From: a virus
Reading direction: 5' to 3' (one strand)
DNA: 36,955 nt
IMG/VR virus record: IMGVR_UViG_3300042560_001089
Coordinates: 1-36,955 of that record
In this document: in pieces, positions 13,948-19,551 of the stretch
How positions within the stretch are numbered: position 1 is the stretch's first letter
How the letters are laid out: the number at the start of each line of letters is the position of its first letter
Notes under the pieces: model-generated
Databases searched by the model: none
The model's input: only the letters and a program-made list of their open reading frames with translations
What the model was told of the DNA's origin: nothing
Translations under genes and position numbers: made by a program

Positions 13948-14095
13948 TCAACCGTGCTCGCGCCTCGGCCGCGTATCGGGTTGCGCTTTCCGTCCACGCA
14001 GCGCGCTCCGCACGATGACGCGCTTCCATGTTGCGCCACTCCTGCTGCATTTCCTCGGGCAGGTCGATCATCGGTTCATCGTCGTACATAAACAT
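13928..14095 (-). CDS. Small acidic/helical protein, 55 aa
   Basis: ATG at 14095 (TGATG with the upstream stop) or GTG at 14098 (GTGA), with GGGGG upstream in either case. The product reads MFMYDDEPMIDLPEEMQQEW, then a charged helix RNMEARHRAERAAWTESATRYAAEARARLKKGEVA. The C-terminal KGEVA is identical in DNA to the end of the gene upstream, because both contain the repeated junction. The function is unknown. Confidence 0.65.
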   Translation of the reverse strand: MFMYDDEPMIDLPEEMQQEWRNMEARHRAERAAWTESATRYAAEARARLKKGEVA

Positions 14096-14114
14096 CACGC
14101 CACTTCCCCCTTCT
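14095..14114. repeat. Junction repeat copy 2
   Basis: A second copy of the 20-nt junction at 13928-13947, 167 bp away in direct orientation. It again spans a KGEVA-stop end, the Shine-Dalgarno sequence and the next start codon. Confidence 0.85.
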
Positions 14115-14679
14115 GTCCGATGCCCGCCTTGAACTTCTCCCAATCGGCCATTGCGGATTTGAACGCGGGATTTTCCACGCGGTCTCGGGCTTCCTTCTGG
14201 CGTGGGGTCTCGATCTTCGCCGCCGCAACCCGCGATGCCTGGAATCTGATTTCCCGCGTGCGCGCCGTGATCTCGTCAAACATCGTGGAAAGTTCCGCGA
14301 CGGACGGGAACCACTTGAAGCGGGCGGCGGCGTTTTTCAGCGAGTTTTTCGTGAAGCACATGGGCGGCGCATCGATGATCGCCACATAGCCCGCAATCCG
14401 CGTGCGCGCGTCTTCCAGCGGCATGTTGCCCGCGACCAACGGACCCAGCGCCCCAAGCCACCTCGTCACTGTATCGCGCTCTGCGGGGCGAAGAGAGGCA
14501 TTGCACGAGGCAAGCAGCCTTTCAGCCTCTTCGCGCACGCCCGGCGTCACCGGCAATCCGATCCGGTGTTCAGGCGGCTTCGTCAAGTCCTCCGCCACCG
14601 CGCGCAATGTCTTCGATGGCTCCGGAACGGATAAGCTCAGCGAAACCGTTTCCGCCCGTTGTGCGATGCTGTTGCCCAC
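14095..14679 (-). CDS. Putative lambda P-like helicase loader
   Basis: A 194-aa protein with GTG start 14679 preceded by AGGGG. The core (residues about 40-135: GVREEAERLLASCNASL...WLGALGPLVAGNMPLEDARTRIAGYVAIIDAPPMCFTKNSLKNAAARFKWFPSVAELSTMFDEI) has the helical pattern of replication-associated proteins that follow O-like genes in alphaproteobacterial phages. The KWFPSVAEL segment is typical. The C-terminus is a charged helix. It overlaps the upstream O-like gene by 110 nt in another frame, which is long; a shorter start could exist, but no ATG with a ribosome site was seen. Helicase loading is inferred from position. Confidence 0.6.
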   Translation of the reverse strand: MGNSIAQRAETVSLSLSVPEPSKTLRAVAEDLTKPPEHRIGLPVTPGVREEAERLLASCNASLRPAERDTVTRWLGALGPLVAGNMPLEDARTRIAGYVAIIDAPPMCFTKNSLKNAAARFKWFPSVAELSTMFDEITARTREIRFQASRVAAAKIETPRQKEARDRVENPAFKSAMADWEKFKAGIGQKGEVA

Positions 14680-15367
14680 CTCGTGATCCCCTTTCCGCTA
14701 TCGTTCCAATCCTGTTTTGCCAAGTCGTTCGCCAGCCTCGGGCGGTTCGCATTTCCCCCGCCCCCTTACCGTCCGTCCAATACGCGGCGTACTTCGTTTG
14801 CTCGCGGACGATCTCGGCATCCGAAAGGCCCATTCGCTTGGCGAAGTCGATGTCGATTTCGTCGGCCACCCAATCGCGCGGCAAAGCCATCTTCGGTTCA
14901 CGCTTGCGGGGCGGCGGTGTAACAACAACATCAGATGTCTTGTTATGTTCTGTATTGTTATGTGTTGTAGCCGGAATTTTCCGGTCGTTTCCGGAATTTT
15001 CCGGAACTTCCGGCTCAGGTGCTTCCGGTTCCGGATCGGGCTTAGACTTGCGGTTCTCTTTCCGCTGTGCGTCGTTCCCGTTCTGCCGCTCGCCCCACTT
15101 GGCGATTGATCCGTCTTCCGAAATCAGGTTGCGCGTGGTGAATCCAGAGAGGATCGCGGCGGCTTCCGTTTCCTCGCAATCGAGGCACACGGCCAATTCT
15201 TCCGCCGTCAATGATGATGCGTTACCGCGCGGCTTCGACTGTGCGGCCCGCTCTAAAGCGATTGCCCACGCCGCCAAGACATCCCCAAGGCGCACGCCAG
15301 CGGCCCGCGCTATCAGCTTGAACTTGGGGTCTGAGTGGGTGCCGACGTGCCAGCAAAGCCAATTCAT
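14570..15367 (-). CDS. Lambda O-like replication initiator
   Basis: A 265-aa protein starting at ATG 15367 (ATGA with upstream gene). Residues 1-95 (MNWLCWHVGTHSDPKFKLIA...VRLGDVLAAWAIALERA...LTAEELAVCLDCEETEAAAILSGFTTRNLIS...IAKWGERQ) form a winged-helix pattern typical of phage replication organisers. Residues about 105-155 are a Pro/Glu/Asn/Thr low-complexity linker encoded by the palindromic repeats at 14971-15034. A C-terminal helical part (about 160-235) includes AYWTDGKGAGEMRTARGWRTTWQNRIG, a pattern of replisome organiser C-termini. The initiator should bind the repeats inside its own gene and recruit the next gene's product. Confidence 0.75.
   Translation of the reverse strand: MNWLCWHVGTHSDPKFKLIARAAGVRLGDVLAAWAIALERAAQSKPRGNASSLTAEELAVCLDCEETEAAAILSGFTTRNLISEDGSIAKWGERQNGNDAQRKENRKSKPDPEPEAPEPEVPENSGNDRKIPATTHNNTEHNKTSDVVVTPPPRKREPKMALPRDWVADEIDIDFAKRMGLSDAEIVREQTKYAAYWTDGKGAGEMRTARGWRTTWQNRIGTIAERGSRGGQQHRTTGGNGFAELIRSGAIEDIARGGGGLDEAA
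14939..15034. other. Candidate replication origin inside the O-like gene
   Basis: Two identical 14-bp palindromes CCGGAATTTTCCGG lie at 14971-14984 and 14991-15004, spaced by 20 bp start to start. They are followed by related TTCCGG half sites at 15007-15012, 15023-15028 and 15029-15034. Next to them is an AT-rich tract (14939-14970) with two TTGTTATGT direct repeats. Iterons plus an AT-rich unwinding region inside the initiator gene is the lambda ori arrangement. Confidence 0.7.
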
Positions 15368-15941: not shown

Positions 15942-16358
15942 TTATCCCGTGGTTTGTGTGGACAAGTCGGCGTGCTCGTTCTTGATGGAGAACTTGGCTT
16001 TCTTCTCGACCACCCGCTTGATGGGCGCGCACGGCACCCCGTTTATGCAGAACTCGACCGCAGGGAACATCGCCTGAGCGAGCTTCCAGCGGATCGTCCA
16101 AGCCCTCGTCTTTGTCGGGGCCACCTTGTGCTCGTCCCACACTTCCTTCTGCCCCCGGAAATAGGCGAAATCGCATCGAATGCTCGTGATCTTCACCCCG
16201 TTGACCACCAGCGGGACGTTGAGTTGGCGGCGGAGCGTTCGGATCTCCCCCGCGCGTTCTAGGAGCTTCAACTCGCACCACCGCCGATGCTCGGCCTGAC
16301 TGTCGAACGTGATCCCGTCTACCGTCACCCGCTTGTTTCCGTACTTGGGGCGCTTCAT
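15942..16358 (-). CDS. DUF1064-like nuclease
   Basis: A 138-aa protein starting at ATG 16358 (ATGA with the methyltransferase stop). It shows the DUF1064 signature: KYGNKRVTVDGITFDSQAEHRRWCELKLLERAGEIRTLRRQ, then G.KI..I.CDFAYF.....V.DEHK. The E/D/QxK arrangement (FDSQAEHRRW; CDFAYFRGQKEVWDEHK) fits a PD-(D/E)XK-type nuclease fold. Such proteins are common in phage replication blocks and are thought to act on DNA branches or ends. The biochemical activity is inferred from the family. Confidence 0.8.
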   Translation of the reverse strand: MKRPKYGNKRVTVDGITFDSQAEHRRWCELKLLERAGEIRTLRRQLNVPLVVNGVKITSIRCDFAYFRGQKEVWDEHKVAPTKTRAWTIRWKLAQAMFPAVEFCINGVPCAPIKRVVEKKAKFSIKNEHADLSTQTTG

Positions 16359-17147
16359 GCGGCACCGTCCAAGAGGCTCGCTTGAACGGGCTTAGGCGCT
16401 GGCTCGGCAAAGAGGCGGGGCTGCTTGTATGCGTCGTCAATTCGCTTGCAGGCTATGTCGAAGTATTTCGGCTCCAACTCTATGCCGACGAACTTCCGCC
16501 CGAGCTTTGCGCACGCAACACCCGTGGTGCCGCTGCCCATGAAGGGGTCGCAGACCGTGTCGTCGCCGCTTGTGTGTATCGACACGAGCCGCTCGATCAA
16601 CTCGATGGGCTTTTCGTTCGGGTGCAACCGTTCGCGGGGCGGCATTTGCGAGAGAATGTTGGCAACCGTTCCCGCGTCGGGATTCCACCGGATGCGCCCG
16701 CCCGTTTTGTGCGCGACCATCACCATCTCATGCTGCCTGCGATACCGAAGGCCGAGTCGGGGGTTTTTCTTGTCCCAAACCAGCGAATGAAAGAACTGCA
16801 AGCCGCCGCGATCCATGCGCTCTGCGAGCCACGCGAACACGGGGCGAGGCCCCCCCCCCGCCACAAAAGCAACAGCACGCCGACGCCCCTTTGGGGAGCA
16901 ATCGGGCCACTTCCAGAAGCATCCCGTCGACCACGCGCCGCATTGAGTCCGCGTCGTCGTTCGCTATCGGCTTGCTTTCGATCCCACGGTGTTCGTTTAG
17001 GCGCGCGTTAAAGTCGCCGTCATGGTTGGAGTTGCCGTAGGGCGGATCTGTAATGCAGGCATCCACCTTCCCAAGCGTCGGCAGTATCTCTAGGCAATCC
17101 CCCAGGATCAGCCGGGCGTCTCCGATGATTTCCTCTCGGTAGGTCAC
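16355..17147 (-). CDS. DNA methyltransferase, interrupted by a frameshift at a poly-G tract
   Basis: Two overlapping frames encode one protein. The N-terminal frame starts at GTG 17147 (GTGA coupling) and carries ITDPPYGN (DPPY at residues 34-37), the catalytic motif of N6-adenine or N4-cytosine enzymes. At 16859-16850 the coding strand has ten consecutive G residues; with nine, the reading passes directly into the second frame. That frame contains [35 protein letters not shown] and the SAM-binding [33 protein letters not shown], ending at 16355. Motif order (DPPY before the GxG loop) fits the beta class. As written, translation ends at 16728 and lacks the SAM site. The split is a sequencing or assembly error, slippage expression, or phase variation. 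It may protect phage DNA from host restriction. Confidence 0.85.
16850..16859. repeat. Ten-base homopolymer (C on +, G on coding strand)
   Basis: The longest homopolymer I noticed. It sits exactly where the methyltransferase changes reading frame. A tract of nine or twelve would restore a single open frame. Confidence 0.9.
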
Positions 17148-19451: not shown

Positions 19452-19479
19452 CCTATCACACAGCGTTTCCGCTTGTCAA
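19452..19479 (-). promoter_or_regulatory. Candidate leftward promoter
   Basis: On the - strand the perfect -35 TTGACA is followed after 16 bp by GATAGG, a poor -10, just before the regulator gene at 19443. The weak -10 may indicate regulated expression or that the true -10 is elsewhere. Confidence 0.5.
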
Positions 19480-19523
19480 ATACATTTCGTGAAAATAATT
19501 TTGGGCGATACGCATTTTATATC

Positions 19524-19551
19524 TTGCATCCCGCACGCGGCGTGATATTGT
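19524..19551 (+). promoter_or_regulatory. Candidate early rightward promoter
   Basis: TTGCAT, 16-bp spacer, TATTGT. Transcription would begin about 35-40 bp before the first gene of the right operon at 19598. It is a reasonable sigma-70-type match; no experimental support is visible. Confidence 0.6.

Follow-up and report, generated by a model that had tools for sequence, protein, structure and literature searches.

Does the repeat-rich DNA inside a phage initiator gene serve as that phage's own replication origin? The question arises from the minus-strand gene P0001 (14570–15367) of the IMG/VR virus record IMGVR_UViG_3300042560_001089, which is classed as linear and which we analysed in its entirety (36,955 bp; hereafter the window). 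P0001 encodes an O-like replication initiator of 265 amino acids, and the candidate origin lies in the DNA encoding its linker. A sequence-only reading had proposed, on the logic of phage lambda, that an origin is carried here within a tolerant linker; comparison with relatives supports this proposal, in the absence of binding or replication data. We consider it very likely, with a probability of about 0.87, that the site is a phage replication origin situated within its own initiator gene, with binding, melting, helicase loading and origin activity all being inferred.

P0001 matches, weakly, two families of replication initiation proteins, phrog_3729 (E 1e-5) and phrog_9474 (E 2e-4), and the phrog_3729 profile also matches 55 of 55 aligned relatives. 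No Pfam family matched P0001, and Pfam-level homology to a known O family was not seen. Its N-terminal domain (15083–15367, minus strand; MNWLCWHVGT..DPKF ... KWGERQ) is conserved across relatives in our alignments. The basic segment DAQRKENRKSK (15041–15073, minus strand) was assigned in the window by position only; the equivalent segment in relatives covaries with the iteron triplet.

Repeats and a low-stability tract in the initiator gene

The 14-mer CCGGAATTTTCCGG occurs at 14971–14984 and 14991–15004, 20 bp apart from start to start, with no other copy in the window. TTCCGG is found at 14979, 14989, 14999, 15008, 15023 and 15029; three copies lie outside the two 14-mers, and the copy at 14989 overlaps the second of them. 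The sequence-only reading had reported two exact palindromes 20 bp apart, three further TTCCGG half sites and two TTGTTATGT repeats. Rechecking the sequence confirmed the repeats at these positions and in these numbers, with the 20 bp measured start to start and the extra TTCCGG at 14989 overlapping the second CCGGAATTTTCCGG, but the description as exact palindromes failed. The reverse complement of CCGGAATTTTCCGG is CCGGAAAATTCCGG, which makes the element an inverted repeat, CCGGAA-TT-TTCCGG, with a two-base centre. We abandoned the palindrome reading and regard the inverted arms as a by-product of direct repeats of about 10 bp on the coding strand.

Read on the coding (minus) strand, the array runs CCGGAAGTT CCGGAAAATT CCGGAAACGA CCGGAAAATT CCGGCT, with spacings of 9, 10, 10 and 10 bp. 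CCGGAA cores thus descend from 15013 to 14969 at intervals of 9–10 bp, with two outlying copies at 15029–15034 and 15023–15028. The first iteron core (15008–15013) is followed 9 bp on by the second (14999–15004), and then at 10-bp steps by the third (14989–14994), the fourth (14979–14984) and a degenerate fifth, CCGGCT (14969–14974), which adjoins the low-stability tract.

A chance cluster without function is all but excluded. Short two-copy repeats are common, which favours such an explanation; against it, the array ranks first for lag-10 matching among all sites of the window (22 of 30, compared with a maximum of 21 in 100 Markov shuffles) and is its densest hexamer cluster, with nine CCGGAA on either strand between 14971 and 15034 where shuffled sequences reached at most 4–7, and the layout recurs in about 150 relatives. 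The pattern CCGGAAN4CCGGAA, allowing at most one mismatch, has three matches in the window, all within the array, a number reached in 0 of 100 shuffles. The linker repeats also exceeded those obtained by synonymous recoding of the same protein (p = 0.003 with family codon usage, p = 0.010 with codon permutation). The array and its excess over both chance and coding need are thereby shown by computation, as is the low-stability tract next to it.

This tract, 14920–14979, is a candidate duplex-unwinding region that holds ACATAACAATACAGAACATAACAAGAC on the coding strand and TTGTTATGT at 14940 and 14955. Nearest-neighbour stability is lower here than in any other 60-bp stretch of the window (rank 1 of 36,896 positions), and the tract's GC content lies below the synonymous expectation, with 0 of 200 recodings as low. 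The AT-rich tract that had been described beside the repeats is therefore present, although its left edge had been set too short, as low stability extends to about 14920. Next lowest in stability within the window is the 60-bp stretch 19472–19531, which is close to a switch in gene orientation and to the skew minimum, and could be a divergent promoter region.

A GC-skew plot had been suggested as a check on the origin and was run: the cumulative curve has no inflection at 14.9–15.0 kb and reaches its minimum near 20 kb, at the point where the genes change orientation. GC skew thus gives the site no support, but it is confounded by gene orientation. Because the cumulative skew minimum of lambda likewise falls at its transcription divergence, skew discriminates poorly and was used neither for nor against the origin. 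DnaA boxes were not enriched, TTATCCACA with at most one mismatch having three matches in the window against 3.05 expected. Among relatives, perfect TGTGGATAA DnaA boxes just past the tract were seen only in the linkers of L072 and L086.

A proposed origin layout shared among relatives

Scans of IMG/VR and GTDB genomes yielded about 90 loci, and later scans added more. The closest relative of P0001, L002, is 52% identical; it shares the CCGGAA array and the ACATAACAA tract with the window, whereas its linker protein and C-terminus differ. Compared with synonymous recoding, its array alone gave p = 0.013 and 0.055. The CCGGAA class consists of only two sequences, the window and L002.

More widely, about 150 relatives share a layout of tandem iterons with a 10-bp period, followed by a T-poor, A/G-rich tract. 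The iterons of distant relatives differ, being mostly of the form NNN-ACGC, and their copies are read in all three frames. Across the family, lag-10 identity was 0.443 in linker DNA, compared with 0.245 for the part encoding the N-domain and 0.267 for that encoding the C-terminus. Of 72 non-redundant genes, 63 had a best lag-10 score above that of synonymous resampling (p<0.01). The lag-10 score was chosen after the repeats had been seen, and in some genes the best stretch is the tract and not the iterons. Iterons are concentrated on the coding strand of linkers, where they number 18.5 per kb; the opposite strand has 2.3 per kb and the remainder of the gene 2.7. Counted from the start of the last iteron core, the family tract sets in after about 10 bp and extends for about 40 bp. 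In 62 of 66 genes its GC content fell short of that expected from synonymous recoding (p<0.05), and its arginine codons are mostly AGR (160, with 28 CGN), the reverse of what is found elsewhere (99 AGR, 1462 CGN). Conservation of this layout is shown by computation, and the expectation that relatives would keep the layout while the linker protein changed is met by L002 and by the wider family.

These data bear on the possibility that the repeats serve the protein, repetitive DNA being a by-product of a low-complexity linker selected for its amino-acid composition. In its favour, the linkers are low in complexity and charged, and the ACATAACAA pair of the window is spaced by 15 bp, that is, in frame. 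Against it, a 10-bp period puts successive copies in all three frames, the DNA exceeds synonymous resampling in 63 of the 72 genes, and the tract combines low GC (62 of 66 genes) with a switch from CGN to AGR arginine codons that is confined to it. We regard this explanation as practically ruled out: since repeats and tract exceed what the protein needs, the DNA is the object of selection.

A second alternative treats the repeats not as an origin but as an operator through which the replication operon regulates itself, with either the initiator or a different phage regulator binding there. Any sequence-specific tandem array could regulate, and binding by the initiator would equally predict the covariation of protein segment and iteron triplet described below. 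However, the array lies in mid-gene, the family's AT-rich tract of about 40 bp follows directly and in fixed placement, as in lambdoid origins, and the tract in the window is its least stable 60 bp. An operator in place of an origin thus appears very improbable.

The loci L239–L318 have identical N-domains and nearly constant iterons, with a tract that varies by in-frame six-base units (GATAAA/GATACA); from their appearance, we take them to be mostly E. coli records. When E. coli-type N-domains were used as seeds, the scan gave 80 loci whose N-domains were 100% identical to a single query, and was uninformative for the code set out below.

The C-terminal domain is swapped among relatives. In L075, L076 and L081, the initiator N-domain continues into HNH-endonuclease-like sequence ahead of the basic segment; the same contigs bear L354, L355 and L357, with a second initiator-like match about 500 bp on (L075/L354, contig coordinates). 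In L374, L377, L384 and L386, the N-domain is followed by sequence resembling, by eye, a GIY-YIG/T5orf172-type domain, and no iteron class was called.

Basic segment and iteron triplet

Just upstream of the iterons, relatives encode a basic segment, R-x1-x2-x3-x4-R, that covaries with the variable triplet (NNN of NNN-ACGC). In the resulting code, K at x1 with Q at x4 corresponds to GTC, S to GCA, T to GTG, A to CGA, and V to GAA or GTA. This covariation in relatives is shown by computation. Across about 150 relatives, two or three initiator residues largely predict the iteron word that the protein is inferred to bind, so that origin specificity may be legible directly in the sequence. The code was noticed in the first relatives, and the rule was fixed in writing before subsequent scans; the script for parsing and class calling was produced once the held-out rows had been inspected, meaning that the rule was blind but those choices were not.

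On the training loci, the code was right in 59 of 63. The held-out set comprised 48 new distinct loci, 37 of them scoreable, and the code was right in 33, with two of the four misses being ties; several held-out loci yielded no call, and the motif rules for scoring were our own. Where the held-out class was unambiguous, the code was right in 33 of 34 loci versus 20 of 34 for the nearest neighbour by N-domain, and the maximum in 10,000 label shuffles was 17. On reading, five named phages with divergent N-domains also agreed with the code. A scan of 80 loci from a more distant group contained 66 distinct genes; of the 49 that could be scored, the code was right for 38. Among the 11 misses, 8 combine K at R+1 with W-K at R+4/R+5 and have GGA or GCA iterons, and this K..WK class was added to the code afterwards.

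Over 160 pooled loci, which include those that suggested the rule, covariation peaked at R+1 (1.76) and R+4 (1.52 of 2.48 bits of excess information), was weaker at R-3 to R-6 and R+8, and was low at R+3, R+6, R+7 and R+9. The covarying positions may fit one face of a helix, a helix that is inferred only from their spacing; a search of solved structures found none related.

Covariation could alternatively reflect shared descent of a few linker blocks exchanged whole, and not base recognition, an explanation that bears on the code and not on the origin. At least 26 changes of iteron class on the N-domain tree indicate that segment and iterons travel together; the two are only about 50–100 bp apart, and R-3, R-4 and R-6 also carry some signal. 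Against this, the signal is uneven, near maximal at R+1 and R+4 and low at R+3, R+6, R+7 and R+9. In close pairs, R+1 differs in 93% of cases if the iteron class differs and in 2% if it is the same, and the CGA class with A at x1 recurs on distant N-domains (L003, L077/L078, L238). Block exchange is therefore an unlikely full account, and co-inheritance of blocks might still contribute part of the covariation.

Base recognition remains our preferred reading. The code does not cover the iterons of the window (CCGGAA) or its segment QRKENRKSK, leaving both the window and L002 unscorable by the rule, and the recognition residues for the CCGGAA class are not established by it. In a bolder form that we hold to be probable, a large group of phage initiators would carry a short recognition helix whose residues R-2, R+1 and R+4 dictate the variable triplet, the 10-bp iterons concerned being encoded a few dozen bases further along that gene; reader and target would evolve as a cassette, the sequence would reveal origin specificity, and the window and L002 would represent a divergent CCGGAA class of the same design.

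If true, the novelty would be a relation between residues and bases that holds for a whole group of phage initiators, derived from comparison and tested on held-out loci. With it, origins could be found and assigned to specificity groups from sequence alone, and one could predict which resident prophages have origins in common or compete for them. In the open-access literature searched, mostly as titles and abstracts, we found no paper describing a segment-triplet code, which is weak evidence of absence.

Proposed mechanism, known origins and neighbouring genes

In the proposed mechanism, P0001 would be made from its gene and then bind the 10-bp tandem iterons that its own linker DNA contains, probably with one subunit per helical turn on the same face of the DNA, and would oligomerise. 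Contact would be made by a basic helix just after the N-terminal domain, the complex would open the adjoining tract at 14920–14979, and the C-terminal domain would recruit the helicase or its loader. These biochemical steps are inferred by analogy with lambda-type origins (PMC7466680) and 80alpha (PMC5499656). Points against the origin reading are the weak replication-family matches of P0001, the lack of a skew inflection and the restriction of the CCGGAA class to two sequences.

Phage origins inside initiator genes are already known. In the lambda origin within gene O, and in lambdoid and Stx phages, iterons lie in the linker-coding DNA of the initiator, as in the window, and a coding-strand T-poor, AT-rich tract follows them, as in the window's family; in such origins, base changes in the iterons that preserve the protein sequence abolish plasmid replication (PMC7466680). 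The likeness to lambda that had been proposed held only in part: lambda has four annotated 18-bp iterons about 20–24 bp apart in place of direct repeats of about 10 bp, and lambda O has neither a clear lag-10 signal nor an xxR-x1..x4-R segment.

ORF20 of Staphylococcus phage 80alpha, a putative replisome organizer with an annotated rep_origin within the gene, is similar in having repeats followed by an AT-rich tract, an embedded origin and a DnaC-like loader as the next gene; ORF20 is not complementable in trans, which suggests an embedded ori (PMC5499656). It differs in that the stretch examined has no 10-bp period or basic-segment code. Organizers of the Phage_rep_org_N type (PF09681) in Escherichia phage Tritos and Aeromonas phage pAEv1818 have N-domains 38–40% identical to one family member (tblastn) and show the same iteron-tract layout and the same code as the family, although their iteron class differs from the CCGGAA of the window. 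PF09681 itself has no match in P0001 and matches 1 of 57 family members (E 1.3e-4). The Rep protein of TP901-1, annotated as an experimental replication protein, likewise has an AT-rich stretch inside its gene, though without a clear iteron signal at 10 bp.

In Cy-LDV1 and pAEv1818, the gene following the initiator encodes a helicase or DnaC-like loader. The downstream neighbour in the window, P0003 (14095–14679, minus strand), is without a family match, and a role as helicase loader is a possibility suggested by its position only. P0003 (window 14095–14125) and the initiator of L003 (L003 3868–3894) share the terminal residues GIGQKGEVA, suggesting tail exchange. The upstream neighbour, P0002 (15364–15834, minus strand), encodes a DnaA domain-IV-like protein (Pfam Bac_DnaA_C, E 2.6e-16). 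A peptide-pattern search of IMG/VR found no relatives of P0002. Small genes of DnaA domain-IV-like type also lie directly upstream of the initiator in L002, L003, L004, L237 and others, and a profile built from four P0002-type sequences, of which that of L004 is mis-framed, matched 25 ORFs in the collected loci, several being duplicates from a single contig. Elsewhere in the window, two overlapping minus-strand ORFs (16355–16864 and 16728–17147) match DNA methyltransferase families over different parts of the profile and may represent a frameshift or a split gene.
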